Below, one piece after another: positions 10,022-37,835 of a stretch of 37,945 bases of DNA. How positions within the stretch are numbered: position 1 is the stretch's first letter; each line of letters opens with the position of its first letter. The notes below the pieces were generated by a model that saw nothing but the letters and a program-made list of their open reading frames with translations, searched no databases and had not been told where the DNA came from. The DNA is from Erysipelothrix rhusiopathiae (lineage in GTDB: Bacteria; Bacillota_I; Bacilli_A; Erysipelotrichales; Erysipelotrichaceae): contig CACYBS010000271.1 of the NCBI GenBank assembly GCA_902772725.1, positions 1-37,945 of the forward strand. The letters are read 5' to 3'. The position numbers were made by a program, and so were the translations under genes.

Positions 10022-10282
10022 TTACATGTCCAATGCACGGTCAAGCCATACATCGGTCTTTCCTTCCATAGCTTGGTATTGAGAATTGCAGTTATAGCAC
10101 TGGAAATAATAGAACGTTGTCCAGGATGTTTGTTGTCTATCAGTAACTTTACACATTCTACCGCAGCTTGGACATTGTAATTCTGTTGGGTTATGAACAG
10201 GCGCGTCATAATTTTTTATGTCACCACCACTAACTTTATCAAGCTTTTCTTCTGTAAGATTTATTGGTGCCTTTTTTTCCAT
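10022..10282 (-). CDS. Small zinc-ribbon peptide with double-glycine leader
   Basis: 86 residues, not recognised as a named family. Residues 9-20 read LTEEKLDKVSGG, matching the double-glycine leader (L-T-x-E-x-L-x-x-V-x-G-G) cut and exported by C39-peptidase ABC transporters. The mature part would be 66 residues with C37PSC40, C44 and C62YNC65, a likely zinc ribbon or disulfide knuckle, plus many aromatics. Known families with such leaders are class II bacteriocins and export peptides; zinc ribbons are unusual there. No transporter or immunity gene lies nearby. It has its own promoter, AAGGA ribosome site and terminator, so it is a stand-alone unit. Confidence 0.6.
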   Translation of the reverse strand: MEKKAPINLTEEKLDKVSGGDIKNYDAPVHNPTELQCPSCGRMCKVTDRQQTSWTTFYYFQCYNCNSQYQAMEGKTDVWLDRALDM

Positions 10283-18929: not shown

Positions 18930-19094
18930 TTACTGGTTTAATTCTATATAGTTAGTTCGTTCAAAATCTTTACCGGAATGTTTATCAATATAAATATTTT
19001 CTTTTGAAACGCCCGCTCTTTTCAGCTCATCCAACTGTCTATCTTCATTCTGGGTCGCACTGGACACTCTTGCATATCCAAATATCTTTGTCAT
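18930..19094 (-). pseudogene. Truncated serine recombinase (N-terminal fragment)
   Basis: 54 residues from the ATG at 19094, which has a strong AGAGGAGG ribosome site. It matches the start of resolvase/invertase-type serine recombinases: KIFGYARVSSATQNEDRQL with nucleophile Ser11, then GVSKENIYIDKHSGKDF and ER. The family normally continues for another 130 or more residues, including the catalytic arginines and the DNA-binding domain, but here the frame stops after YIELNQ and meets the amidase terminator. It is therefore a remnant, probably left by an integrated or excised element. A 7-bp inverted repeat GACTTAC/GTAAGTC (19114-19138) lies just upstream. Confidence 0.8.
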
Positions 19095-19215
19095 CAGCAA
19101 ACACCTCCTCTTTGACTTACACAATAATGCAGTAAGTCATGAGATTTAGAAGGTTTGCTTCCGCTTTTAATGATCTTTAATATTGTGAATTTCCAAAAAT
19201 GAATCCCTATTTTCG

Positions 19216-31309: not shown

Positions 31310-31867
31310 ATGTACAACCAAATTGAACGTGAATTAAAAATACTCATTACAGAAGATCAATACAAAAGAATTCTCCATTCATATGAATTTTCAGAAAAAT
31401 TCATACAGACAAATACCTTTTACGATACACCTGACCGTAAAGTAAGAGCAGCCAACGGTGCCATGAGAATACGAAAGAAAGATGGTAAACACATCTTTAC
31501 TTTAAAAATAAGAACAGATCCGATTACACATATCGAATATGAAAAAGAAATCGATGTGGATCGAATTCAGGATATAAGAGATCCTGAGATTCTAGGCTGG
31601 TTGAATAAATACGGAATTCCACAGGATGTAGAAAAAATACTCTCTTTTACTACTGAAAGAAGTGTTCTTATATTAGAAAATGCGGAATTCTGTGTAGATA
31701 AGACTATATTTGAAAACTATGTAGATTATGAATTGGAATATGAATATACGAAAGAGCATGATGGAATCACTGCTTTCAACGCTATTTTGGCACCATATGG
31801 ACTGCATTATATAAAAAATAACCCCGGAAAATTCTCCAGGGCTATGAAGTTAAAACTTATTAAATAA
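31310..31867 (+). CDS. CYTH-domain phosphohydrolase (triphosphatase-like)
   Basis: 185 residues. The ExExK-type signature is IERELKI at residues 4-10; downstream KVRAANGAMRIRKKDGKHIFTLKIR and EKEIDVD give the basic and acidic tunnel strands. Firmicute YjbK-type members hydrolyse inorganic or thiamine triphosphate; the substrate here is unknown. Start is ATG at 31310 with GAGGT upstream rather than the earlier in-frame ATG. Its 3' end overlaps the convergent coiled-coil gene by 18 bases. Confidence 0.88.
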   Translation: MYNQIERELKILITEDQYKRILHSYEFSEKFIQTNTFYDTPDRKVRAANGAMRIRKKDGKHIFTLKIRTDPITHIEYEKEIDVDRIQDIRDPEILGWLNKYGIPQDVEKILSFTTERSVLILENAEFCVDKTIFENYVDYELEYEYTKEHDGITAFNAILAPYGLHYIKNNPGKFSRAMKLKLIK

Positions 31868-32482
31868 CCGATAGAAGAGACCTTTTGAATTATAGGTTTC
31901 TTCTTTTCTTTTATAATCATCCAGCTGTCTTTGAAGATCATCCACTTTTTCTTTTTCTTCCTTAAGAATATGATTTTCAGATTCAAGTTGTGAATTTTCA
32001 GATTCTAAATCAGAATTTTTAGAGCGTAGGTTTTCCCTCTCTATTTCTAAATTCCTATTTTGAAGCTCCAGCTGCTGAATTTGATTCTCTTTGGATTGGG
32101 TTTCCAACAAATATGTCTGTTTACTTTTTTCCAATTCAATAGCTAATCTTTCACGATATAATTCTTCAATTTTTGATTGTGATTTTTCTTTTTCTTCAAT
32201 GATAGCCTTTAGCTTTTCATTTTCATACCGAAGCTCCATCTCTACAGTAGATACTTCATGTTTTTCTTTTCGGAAATATCCAGCCAGCTTTTCGACACCT
32301 TCGGCAGTTATCGTAATCCGCTTTGTTTCTTCACTTTTATACTTATATCCTTTATCGGGATAATCTTTTACCAATTTCGCAACTGCTTTATCGACGGTAT
32401 TCCGGGACTTGGAAAAATGCTGACAAATTTGTGAAATATCCATATCATAATATACATCTATCATCTGATCGCTGTCTGCCAT
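31850..32482 (-). CDS. HTH - coiled-coil - amphipathic-tail DNA-binding protein, candidate chromosome organiser
   Basis: 210 residues, no named family recognised. Residues 14-36 (MDISQICQHFSKSRNTVDKAV) form a helix-turn-helix, with wing-like strands to about 60 (KYKSEETKRITITAEGVEKL). Residues about 78-197 are a continuous charged heptad-type coiled coil. The tail SKGLFYRLFNKF is short, aromatic and basic, like a membrane-binding amphipathic helix. The same layout occurs in RacA, KfrA and plasmid DUF536 proteins. ATG at 32482 has AAAGGAG upstream. It lies beside the cluster of TCATATGA palindromes and near parS. Function as origin organiser or segregation factor is inference; a simple regulator is the alternative. 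Confidence 0.75.
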   Translation of the reverse strand: MADSDQMIDVYYDMDISQICQHFSKSRNTVDKAVAKLVKDYPDKGYKYKSEETKRITITAEGVEKLAGYFRKEKHEVSTVEMELRYENEKLKAIIEEKEKSQSKIEELYRERLAIELEKSKQTYLLETQSKENQIQQLELQNRNLEIERENLRSKNSDLESENSQLESENHILKEEKEKVDDLQRQLDDYKRKEETYNSKGLFYRLFNKF

Positions 32483-32933
32483 ACAATTCTCCTTTCCTAT
32501 GATTTTCATAATCGTGTGTTTTGTATTATATCACAACTCACTTTTTATTTCTACCATATCACAGGATTTTCATAACCCTTTTTCATATATGATTATTTAC
32601 GTTTTTACATTCATATGATTTTGAAATAGAATTCACATTTGATTTCTGCCCATAAAATTATAGTCATATGATAATCACACTCGGAAATATCATAAATGTG
32701 ACAATTCATATGAATTGGAAATCTAAATATGAAAATCATATTTTATTATCTGATTTTCATATATTGTTCAGATATTATTAAAACATATCTATTTGAATGT
32801 TTTAATAGTCCATGTGATAAATATATGAATAATTATTTAAAATCATATGATTAATATAGGGAACTGAACACAAAAAAATCGTATGAATGTTCATATTCTA
32901 CTCATACGATTAGTCATTTATTCGATTATTCCT
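32483..32933. other. AT-rich noncoding region with clustered palindromes
   Basis: 451 bp without a gene. It holds the promoter of the HTH/coiled-coil gene (minus strand TATAAT with TGA extension, plus-strand 32525-32530), the recR terminator (32872-32910), and in between four exact TCATATGA sites (32611, 32664, 32706, 32843), one TCATATATGA (32583) and split sites such as AAATATGA-AAA-TCATATTT (32725-32743). A related split site ATGATTTTCAT lies in the leader of the coiled-coil gene (about 32499-32509). The spacing of exact sites is 53, 42 and 137 bp. Confidence 0.7.
32872..32910 (-). terminator. Terminator of the dnaX-recR unit
   Basis: 9-bp outer stem ATCGTATGA/TCATACGAT (32878-32886 with 32902-32910) and seven T on the minus strand, shortly after recR. 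Confidence 0.85.
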
Positions 32934-33521: not shown

Positions 33522-33591
33522 CTTCTATCCTTCCGCTTATGCATCCGGATCTATACTCCTTTCTACAATTCATATGAGCAGATAAAAGATG

Positions 33592-35364
33592 TCAATCATC
33601 GATGATTTCAATGTTTGGGAACAATGATTTCATCATCGATTCCGGAGTCTGTTCTTCTTCTGCTTCAATGTGCTTGGAGTGAATGATAACCTCAGCCGGT
33701 TCCGGTAATGTACCATTGATCATTCTCTCCTTAAACTCATCAACTACTCTTGAACATTGTGCATTATCAATCGCAAAGACTTTTTTAGGCTTTCCCAATA
33801 TTACATTCATAAAGGATTCAAATCCTTCATTTAACTGCATCTCATTGATTTCCTTCGCAATGATTTCGTTGCGTACATTCACTACAATATAATTATTTCC
33901 ACTCGCTATGATTTTCATATCCCGCAATAGGGAAGCGAACTTTCCATACTTTAAATCCGATAGATATACATCCTTTTCATTAATTTTCTCATTATCGGAT
34001 TGTCTTTCTCTTTTATTGGCTCCTACAAGCAGCTGAATCACATATTCATCGTTTAATATGATTTTACTTTCTGCTTTTTCAATCTGTTCTAATGTTTCAC
34101 GTGAAACATCAGATATATTTTTTTCTTCAATTTCTTCCTTTTTATCCTCTAAAATAGGCGTTTTCTCAAAATATTTCGGATTTTCAGAAACCTTATCATA
34201 TGACGATTCCGTTCCTTTCGTATCCGGTTTCATATTATCTTCATGTTTCACATCAGAAATATTAACCGTTTCACGGACAGGGGATTCATATGATTTTGAG
34301 ATTGGCTTTAATATCGCAGCCTCTAAATAGTCCAATACAGAAGACGCAAAGTTAAATTTGTTGTATGAATCCATTAATTCATTCATTAATTCCACTCGGA
34401 ATAGAGAAGGAGATTCAATGAAATATTTATTGATGACTTCTTTATGATTATCCGATACCAATTTAGATTCCGGTGAATAATCCAGGATGATGCTATCCTT
34501 TAAAAGGGAAATGAAGCTTTGAGTTAACCTTCTTAAATCCATTCCTTTATCATCTGCATTTTGAAGCTTGGATATTAATTCATCAACATTTCTCTTATAT
34601 GCCGCATGGAAGATCTGTCCGATATCATCTGTAGTAATTACTCCATAGATTTGTCGAACATCATCCTCTGTAATCGAATTCACACAGTATGCCGTACATT
34701 GATCTAAGATGGATAGGGAATCACGCATTCCTCCATCACTCAATTGAGCAATCAAACGAATCGCATTCTCATCAATATTGATCTTTTCACTTTCACATAC
34801 CACTCTTAATCTTTTTTGGATTTCTGATAAAGGTACTTTAGAAAAATCAAATCTCTGACAGCGGGATATAATGGTCGGAATGACTTTATTAGGTTCTGTT
34901 GTCGCAAAAATAAAAATCACATGAGCAGGAGGTTCTTCAATTGTCTTTAATAACGCATTGAATGCTCCTGTAGACATCATATGAACTTCATCGATAATAT
35001 AGACCTTATATTTACCTTGAAGGGGAGCATACTTAACCTTATCAATTAAATTACGGACTTCATCCACTCCATTGTTTGAAGCAGCATCGATTTCAATGAT
35101 GTCCGGATGCGAACCATTTAAAGCCATCTGGCAGTTCAAACATTTTCCGCATGGTTTATGATTAGGGTCTTCACAATTCAACATCCTGGCAAATATTTTT
35201 GCGATGGAAGTTTTTCCTGTTCCTCTTGGTCCGCAGAATAGATACGCATGGGCAATACGATTTCTATCGACGGCATTTTTTAAAGTCTGTACAATATGTT
35301 TCTGACCTACAACCTCATCAAATTCAGTAGGTCGATATTTTCTGTATAATGCCTGATATGCCAT
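33592..35364 (-). CDS. dnaX: DNA polymerase III gamma/tau subunit
   Basis: 590 residues. Clamp-loader ATPase: Walker A GPRGTGKTS (45-53), zinc module with C-x8-C-x2-C-x2-C (CEDPNHKPCGKCLNC), Walker B DEVHMMS, and SRC motif ISRCQRFDF. Domain III follows, then a variable acidic linker (about 370-440) and a C-terminal tau-like domain. The linker encodes VSRET, which is the parS palindrome read as protein. Three exact TCATATGA palindromes also fall in this gene. A GGAGG ribosome site and extended -10 precede it; a terminator isolates it from tadA. Confidence 0.96.
   Translation of the reverse strand: MAYQALYRKYRPTEFDEVVGQKHIVQTLKNAVDRNRIAHAYLFCGPRGTGKTSIAKIFARMLNCEDPNHKPCGKCLNCQMALNGSHPDIIEIDAASNNGVDEVRNLIDKVKYAPLQGKYKVYIIDEVHMMSTGAFNALLKTIEEPPAHVIFIFATTEPNKVIPTIISRCQRFDFSKVPLSEIQKRLRVVCESEKINIDENAIRLIAQLSDGGMRDSLSILDQCTAYCVNSITEDDVRQIYGVITTDDIGQIFHAAYKRNVDELISKLQNADDKGMDLRRLTQSFISLLKDSIILDYSPESKLVSDNHKEVINKYFIESPSLFRVELMNELMDSYNKFNFASSVLDYLEAAILKPISKSYESPVRETVNISDVKHEDNMKPDTKGTESSYDKVSENPKYFEKTPILEDKKEEIEEKNISDVSRETLEQIEKAESKIILNDEYVIQLLVGANKRERQSDNEKINEKDVYLSDLKYGKFASLLRDMKIIASGNNYIVVNVRNEIIAKEINEMQLNEGFESFMNVILGKPKKVFAIDNAQCSRVVDEFKERMINGTLPEPAEVIIHSKHIEAEEEQTPESMMKSLFPNIEIIDD
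34093..34108. other. parS site (ParB/Spo0J binding)
   Basis: TGTTTCACGTGAAACA, a perfect 16-bp match to the conserved bacterial parS palindrome, inside dnaX. ParB loads and spreads from such sites, which cluster around the replication origin, so this window is very probably origin-proximal. No parA/parB is in the window. Confidence 0.93.
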
Positions 35365-35868: not shown

Positions 35869-35881
35869 ATTCATTTCCTAT

Positions 35882-35967
35882 AAAAAACGCTACCACCCAT
35901 GACAGAGCTTACTTAAGGCTGCTTCGTTCCCGACCTGACCTGATTCATAAGATACCATTGTAGTAGC
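35882..35967 (-). ncRNA. ffs: Signal recognition particle RNA, small bacterial type
   Basis: Minus strand contains the domain IV hallmark GTCAGGTCGGGAACGAAGCA, with flanking strands that pair, and ends GCTACTAC...GTGGTAGC close the hairpin. A T run follows (35882-35887). About 86 bases, the short 4.5S-like form lacking the Alu domain. It is located between trpB2 and tadA/dnaX, the same position as Bacillus scr relative to tadA and dnaX. The RNA binds Ffh for membrane-protein targeting. The 5' end is estimated from the promoter. Confidence 0.93.
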
Positions 35968-35973
35968 TCATTC

Positions 35974-36001
35974 ATTATAACATAATCAAAACACATTTCA
36001 A
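35974..36001 (-). promoter_or_regulatory. Strong promoter of the SRP RNA
   Basis: Minus strand TTGAAA (35996-36001), 16-bp spacer ending in TGT, and TATAAT (35974-35979). One of the best promoters in the window, fitting an abundant stable RNA. Read-through would supply tadA. Confidence 0.8.
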
Positions 36002-36085
36002 GTTTTCTCTTTTCCTATGATTTTTAAAAATCGGATTTCTGCTTTATATAAAGCATTTTTTTAATTATTTGTGATTTTTCATATG

Positions 36086-36116
36086 AAAAAAGAAGTGCTT
36101 TTTTTTCAGCACTTCT
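36086..36116 (-). terminator. Terminator of trpB2
   Basis: 9-bp stem AGAAGTGCT/AGCACTTCT (36091-36099 with 36108-36116) and a T run on the minus strand; the stem includes part of the stop codon. A 16-bp palindrome with a TCATATGA core (36075-36090) lies immediately downstream and shares the T run. Confidence 0.9.
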
Positions 36117-37524: not shown

Positions 37525-37730
37525 AACTTTTATCCCTTTTCCATCGTATTGGGACAAAAGTTTACTTCTGCGGTGCCACCCATATTGATACAAATTGTAT
37601 CCGCTTCATTTCATTTGATAACGGAGTGCTGCTCCGCCGTTCATACTCCAATTCTGTTTCTGTCCGGACTCAGAAGCCCATTCATATAACTCAAAATACT
37701 GTATTTCCATCTCCAACAGCTTTCTATAAT
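37525..37730 (-). promoter_or_regulatory. Tryptophan-specific T-box leader of trpB2
   Basis: Minus strand. The T-box GGGTGGCACCGC (about 37571-37582) pairs with the tRNA acceptor end; its variable base is C, matching G73 of tRNA-Trp. A specifier candidate TGG followed by A lies at 37648-37650. The terminator is AACTTTTGTCCC/GGGATAAAAGTT (37551-37562 with 37525-37536) followed by T. Uncharged tRNA-Trp would stabilise the antiterminator and switch trpB2 on. A TATAAT at 37737-37742 (plus-strand coordinates) places the RNA start near 37730. Confidence 0.9.
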
Positions 37731-37835
37731 TTCTGCATTATATTACTATTCTTCTTCAACGTTTTTAATGTTAGTTATTATTTTATAGAATATCTTCTAA
37801 AATTCAATACTTTATTTTCTTAAATAAACTGTTGT

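Follow-up and report, generated by a model that had tools for sequence, protein, structure and literature searches.

A candidate DNA-membrane tether with a helically phased site array near the chromosomal origin in a clade of Erysipelotrichaceae

In this study, we identified a gene for a 210-residue protein and an adjacent array of the 8-bp site TCATATGA that are inherited together close to the chromosomal origin in a clade of gut bacteria. Both lie in the 37,945-nucleotide stretch of DNA analysed here, which we refer to as the window. We consider it probable that the gene and the array form a chromosomal, origin-proximal tether between DNA and membrane. This reading is based on computed evidence, namely co-inheritance, phasing, proximity to the origin and parS, the predicted fold, conservation of the C-terminal tail and loss of noc; from it we infer DNA binding, membrane association and function of the protein. 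No mention of TCATATGA was found in the literature searched.

The gene was found in 23 of the 146 genomes of the GTDB family Erysipelotrichaceae, including Holdemanella, Faecalitalea, Faecalicoccus, Floccifex, Absicoccus, Catenisphaera, Ileibacterium and Allobaculum. Two of the 25 genomes listed (G057 and G090) were left out of this count, as they had weak coiled-coil matches only. Outside Erysipelotrichaceae the gene was not found, in searches that covered 295 genomes of the order and 395 genomes of the class. In a tree of RecR and DnaX, the carriers were monophyletic with a support of 1.0, and the sister genome, G039, is without the gene. The gene order in carriers is dnaX, recR, the array, the gene and a convergent CYTH-domain gene. 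Most non-carriers whose contigs reach the CYTH gene have recR followed by this gene, with a gap of ~0.1 to 1.4 kb, and from this adjacency the gene and the array appear to have been inserted jointly. The distance between the gene and dnaA was 13.3 to ~18 kb in all six carriers with dnaA on the same contig. Every carrier contig that extends to dnaX has a parS, either perfect or with one end base altered, within or close to dnaX and 1.3 to 3.3 kb upstream of the tether-candidate gene. Since parS at the dnaX locus was found in some non-carriers too, it probably predates the array.

A plasmid origin was rejected, with no match in 72,556 plasmids. A viral origin was also rejected. The single IMG/VR match (IMGVR_UViG_3300001528_000273) has the 5' end of the gene and an array site at positions 1-250 and is otherwise unrelated; because only its first 250 bp match the gene, it is probably an assembly chimera. 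No match was obtained when viral contigs were queried with dnaX. In a contig of Allobaculum sp. Allo2 (L098, 6001-6661), the frame breaks after 62 residues and the match spans all 210, which is either an assembly error or a decaying copy.

The window contains 10 copies of TCATATGA versus 1.4 expected, and none of 100 shuffles reached this number. The source genome has 72 copies in 2.9 Mb, 10 of which are on this 38-kb contig. An earlier note on this DNA had stated that the gene borders the densest group of sites, and this was confirmed: as listed in Table 1, four sites lie inside the 240 bp immediately upstream of the gene. A variant site, TCCTATGA/TCATAGGA, overlaps the ribosome-binding site and is also enriched (24 versus 0.4 expected). 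Among most carriers, TCATATGA recurs near the position that it occupies in the CYTH gene of the window.

Table 1. Features of the gene, the site array and the neighbouring parS in the window.
Feature	Position	Strand	Basis or remark
Stop codon of the 210-residue tether-candidate gene	31850-31852	-	
wHTH / coiled-coil / C-terminal tail protein, 210 residues	31853..32482	-	ORF, family alignment, AlphaFold2
Terminal GLFYRLFNKF, candidate membrane-targeting helix	31853..31882	-	conservation, likeness to RocS and pSK1 Par tails
Single long helix, residues 79-207 (~130 residues)	31862..32248	-	family alignment, AlphaFold2
Winged helix-turn-helix, ~residues 13-73	32264..32446	-	alignment, model, structural match
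Variant site TCCTATGA/TCATAGGA, overlapping the ribosome-binding site	32495..32502	.	next site 116 bp = 11.05 turns
TCATATGA array site 1	32611..32618	.	next site 53 bp = 5.05 turns
TCATATGA array site 2	32664..32671	.	next site 42 bp = 4.00 turns
TCATATGA array site 3	32706..32713	.	next site 137 bp = 13.05 turns
TCATATGA array site 4	32843..32850	.	
Outlying TCATATGA in the convergent CYTH-domain gene	31379..31386	.	
Outlying TCATATGA, recR/dnaX intergenic	33570..33577	.	
Perfect parS TGTTTCACGTGAAACA inside dnaX, encoding VSRET	34093..34108	.	sequence; recurs in carriers
Outlying TCATATGA in dnaX, ~100 bp from parS	34196..34203	.	
Outlying TCATATGA in dnaX	34286..34293	.	
Outlying TCATATGA in dnaX	34977..34984	.	
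Outlying TCATATGA	36079..36086	.	

The link between gene and motif that the earlier note had drawn held among the relatives, where nearly all carriers had the array beside the gene and 28 non-carriers lacked it at the corresponding locus. In carriers, the 500 bp that precede the gene had a TCATATGA density of 5.65/kb, which dropped to background within a few kb, and the last 1 kb upstream held 80 sites summed over the 23 carrier genomes. The same recR locus in the 28 non-carriers had 2 sites in 99 kb (0.02/kb). When sites with at most one mismatch were counted, 19 of 22 carrier upstream regions exceeded all 200 dinucleotide shuffles, the other three being G003, G088 and G136. Absicoccus (G053) had 13 sites in the 20 kb around the gene versus 0 to 4 in neighbouring blocks, and Catenisphaera (G011) had 15 versus 1. 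All close-spaced pairs of TCATATGA in carriers were at the gene locus, except for one tandem repeat in G001. The sole genome in which a comparable multi-site cluster occurred but no gene was detected, G013, falls inside the carrier clade. Over whole genomes, TCATATGA was about as frequent in carriers as in non-carriers. The extra sites are therefore confined to the locus, and a scattered, Noc-like use of TCATATGA was rejected on these grounds. The origin of TCATATGA as a by-product of coding was rejected for the array, which is non-coding DNA. It is also unlikely for dnaX and the CYTH gene, which in carriers had 41 sites versus 17 in synonymous-codon shuffles (maximum 26) and 20 versus 7.2 (maximum 13), respectively, although these counts overstate the number of independent events because related genomes were pooled; in non-carriers the two genes had 2 and 0 sites. 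In an Allobaculum-like genus (G003, G060 and G136), the gene is intact with an unchanged HTH and the array is thin, and G003 and G136 have no exact TCATATGA sites upstream of the gene.

The sites of the array are separated by whole turns of the DNA helix. Spacings between adjacent upstream sites clustered near 31, 42, 53, 84, 94, 105, 125 and 136 bp. A period scan of 45 spacings, each entered once per genus, peaked at 10.50 bp with R=0.80, and the controls reached at most 0.48 in 20,000 jittered sets and 0.51 in 5,000 random placements. The mean phase was -0.12 bp, that is, an integral number of turns between sites, and the window follows this rule in each of the four steps that begin at the variant on the ribosome-binding site (Table 1). 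In relatives, this variant, TCATAGGA, kept to the phase of the array as well (R=0.95, n=8), as did half-sites (R ~0.5, n=62-77). Periodicity of AT-rich DNA was rejected as the source of the phasing, since of thirteen unrelated control words in the same DNA only TAATA was clearly above noise, and weakly so. We know of no likely cause of whole-turn phasing other than a protein assembly that reads one face of the DNA.

The family alignment places the conserved start of the gene at the ATG at 32482, with TCATAGGAAAGGAG just before it. A longer ORF of 219 residues was rejected as the extent of the gene, as its ATG lies upstream of this start. The earlier note had described a clear N-terminal helix-turn-helix and a coiled coil of about 120 residues. 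The AlphaFold2 model agreed with both: it predicted a winged helix-turn-helix (wHTH) with helices at residues 16-23, 27-40 and 60-70 and two strands, and it bore out the coiled-coil layout with the single helix 79-207, with pLDDT mostly above 90 over the two. The region of the recognition helix, KSRNTVDKAVAKL, is nearly invariant in the family. The long helix, whose length differs from genus to genus, probably forms a parallel coiled coil.

Family searches had also been suggested, against RacA, KfrA, DUF536 and Noc, and no sequence family matched. The protein had no significant family match in Pfam, NCBIfam, PHROGs or PDB sequences. PF04394 (DUF536) was absent among the matches listed for the protein or the aligned family members, and as a positive control pSK1 Par scored 27.3 bits for DUF536, above the cut-off, with the same library. 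There was no NCBIfam match to TIGR04285 or the ParB family, and the Pfam and NCBIfam matches listed, at E up to 1, did not include a KfrA model. A profile search of the PDB with the DNA-binding domain found neither RacA nor pSK1 Par. A profile kinship with pSK1 Par was rejected, since hhalign of the family alignment with Par covered the tail only.

The predicted wHTH domain has a MerR-like winged HTH fold by VIA-align and Foldseek. Its top structural match was the DNA-binding domain of pSK1 Par on centromere DNA (8csh; Z 7.3, rmsd 1.6, 53/53 residues by VIA-align), and the next among the relevant entries was RacA (5i41, 5i44; Z 6.7, rmsd 2.5); since these Z scores are below 8 and possibly reflect a common arrangement, they are taken as resemblance of fold only. 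In Foldseek, the RacA-DNA structures gave a TM of 0.66-0.67 by target length with E above 0.1.

The C-terminal tail is basic/aromatic and conserved, with the family consensus SFFYRLTHKF and the pattern FF/LF-YRL-x-x-K, in which F203, Y204, R205, L206 and K209 are invariant. When compared with shuffles of the same residues, its hydrophobic moment did not stand out (p 0.08-0.15). The terminal GLFYRLFNKF is similar both to the membrane-targeting peptide of RocS, GFFARLFGGK (PMC13042908), and to the tail of pSK1 Par, GFWSRLFGG. By analogy with these, the tail is probably membrane-binding. Membrane binding by RocS requires oligomerisation (PMC11500499), and Noc has a weak membrane affinity and requires assembly on DNA (PMC4331003). 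The site array would serve the same end here.

The earlier note had compared the protein to RacA and Noc, and the comparison stood, with RacA as the second relevant fold match and noc missing in carriers. RocS of Streptococcus pneumoniae, which that note had not mentioned, is a closer known architecture than either. RocS has an N-terminal wHTH, a coiled coil and a short C-terminal membrane-targeting helix; it functions in chromosome segregation and interacts with ParB (PMC11500499, PMC13042908). Its gene is chromosomal, as here, and the array of the 210-residue protein has parS alongside. The protein differs from RocS in having no DUF536 match, in being found only in Erysipelotrichaceae, and in its dedicated phased DNA array, of which the RocS literature consulted describes none. 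It shares with pSK1 Par the one-protein layout, the coiled coil and the similar tail; Par is plasmid-borne, contains DUF536, and has no detectable sequence relation to it except in the tail. One-protein centromere systems have repeated sites next to the gene that are read by its product; here, repeated and phased sites adjoin the gene, and its product may read them. RacA of Bacillus subtilis, which anchors the chromosome in sporulation, has a MerR-like wHTH and a coiled coil as well. However, it has no sequence match with the 210-residue protein and is anchored by DivIVA (PMC11500499), in contrast to the basic/aromatic terminal tail found here. Noc resembles the proposed tether in binding DNA and in having a weak amphipathic membrane helix that needs assembly on DNA (PMC4331003), but it has the unrelated ParB-family fold, an N-terminal membrane helix, a CTP switch (PMC8429893), and sites across the chromosome instead of a single local cluster.

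The carriers are without noc. A Noc-grade match, defined as E below 1e-79, was found in 0 of the 23 carriers and in ~106 of the 123 non-carriers by a tally of the listed best E-values. Among the remaining 17 non-carriers, seven had two matches, the second being a divergent ParB-fold gene; two, G013 and G116, are placed with the carriers by tree or genus, and their lack of the gene for the 210-residue protein is probably due only to assembly gaps; and the others are genomes that are incomplete, seem unreadable or are unexplained. Searches with ParB models detected a single ParB, linked to parA, in each of 12 carriers; each of 14 non-carriers had two ParB-fold genes side by side. All eight carrier loci examined, including that of the window's own genome, read rsmG-parA-parB, and all four non-carrier loci examined read rsmG-noc-parA-parB. 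The Noc-site word TTCCCGGGAA had low, uneven counts in carriers and non-carriers alike, which made the counts uninformative on a loss of Noc sites in carriers. Because the carriers are one clade, the exchange of noc for the gene counts as one event and not 23, and it could be a coincidence. Since the carriers do not have noc, the gene and array may represent a new mechanism for keeping the origin at the membrane. We tentatively suggest, as a possibility somewhat short of probable, that an unrelated one-protein tether with its own phased centromere took over the role of Noc across the clade. Such a non-homologous replacement would concern nucleoid occlusion or origin anchoring in, for example, Holdemanella, Faecalitalea, Faecalicoccus, Floccifex and Absicoccus.

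In the proposed tether, dimers of the protein would bind TCATATGA through the Par/RacA-type winged HTH, and the same dimers would bind half-sites and variants more weakly. As the sites are integral turns apart, the bound dimers would be stacked along one face of the DNA, and their coiled coils would all point in one direction. Each C-terminal tail would act as a weak, MinD/RocS-like membrane anchor; with single anchors this weak, by analogy with RocS and Noc, only the multivalent array would keep the DNA at the membrane. This would fix the oriC/parS region at the membrane and help both to position the origin and to couple division to segregation, a task that Noc performs in relatives. Since the array spans the upstream region of the gene up to the ribosome-binding site, the protein probably also represses itself.

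Self-repression might be the whole of it, with the protein being a regulator whose operator is unusually long, the array serving solely its own transcription and the real job of the protein being independent of the array. This would agree with the location of the densest part of the array, which is the gene's own upstream region and extends to the ribosome-binding site, and with phased operators, which favour cooperative repression. We consider it unlikely, because dnaX and the CYTH gene also exceed their synonymous shuffles (41 versus 17 and 20 versus 7.2), the array keeps to the neighbourhood of dnaA and parS in all carriers tested, and a 130-residue coiled coil with a membrane-type tail would be superfluous for a repressor. 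Plasmid centromeres of the one-protein type also overlap their own promoter, so autoregulation is compatible with a tether.

It is very unlikely, in our estimate, that another protein reads the array, or that the array marks an element for replication or recombination near oriC, with the HTH gene as a mere neighbour. The array and the gene first appear on one and the same branch, each of them placed between recR and the CYTH gene, and the sister genome G039 and other non-carriers have neither. This reading draws on the genus of Allobaculum type in which the gene is intact and the array of exact sites is thin or absent, and on the fact that DNA binding by the protein is a property that we infer; G013 is neutral in this respect because its contig stops within the array. 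Noc has a reported role in replication initiation in Staphylococcus aureus (PMC5540599), and the protein could similarly be an initiation regulator that holds a near-origin locus at the membrane, not a segregation or division factor. The distance of 13-18 kb from dnaA and the loss of noc in carriers are in line with such a regulator. However, the sequence gives no indication of a link to DnaA or to the origin itself, and the proximity of parS is equally compatible with segregation, and thus we regard this as distinctly improbable. The tether remains our preferred reading. It would offer a system, made up of cultured carriers, a defined protein and a defined 8-bp site, for asking whether tethering of the origin region to the membrane can replace Noc. 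It also suggests a design rule, in which whole-turn spacing of sites lets a short array make a weak membrane anchor effective, and it suggests that RocS, pSK1 Par and RacA are part of a wider set of one-protein tethers hidden from sequence families.

Other features of the window were also observed. An ORF of 86 residues on the minus strand (10022-10282) has a double-glycine-type leader, LTEEKLDKVSGG, two Cys pairs and a weak match to phrog_10675 (E 1.3e-5), and from these features its product is possibly a small secreted or modified peptide. A short resolvase-like N-terminal fragment on the minus strand (18930-19124) is probably a remnant of a mobile element. A small SRP RNA lies upstream of tadA (35877-35974, minus strand), and a T-box leader lies upstream of a tryptophan-synthase-beta-like gene (37547-37768, minus strand).
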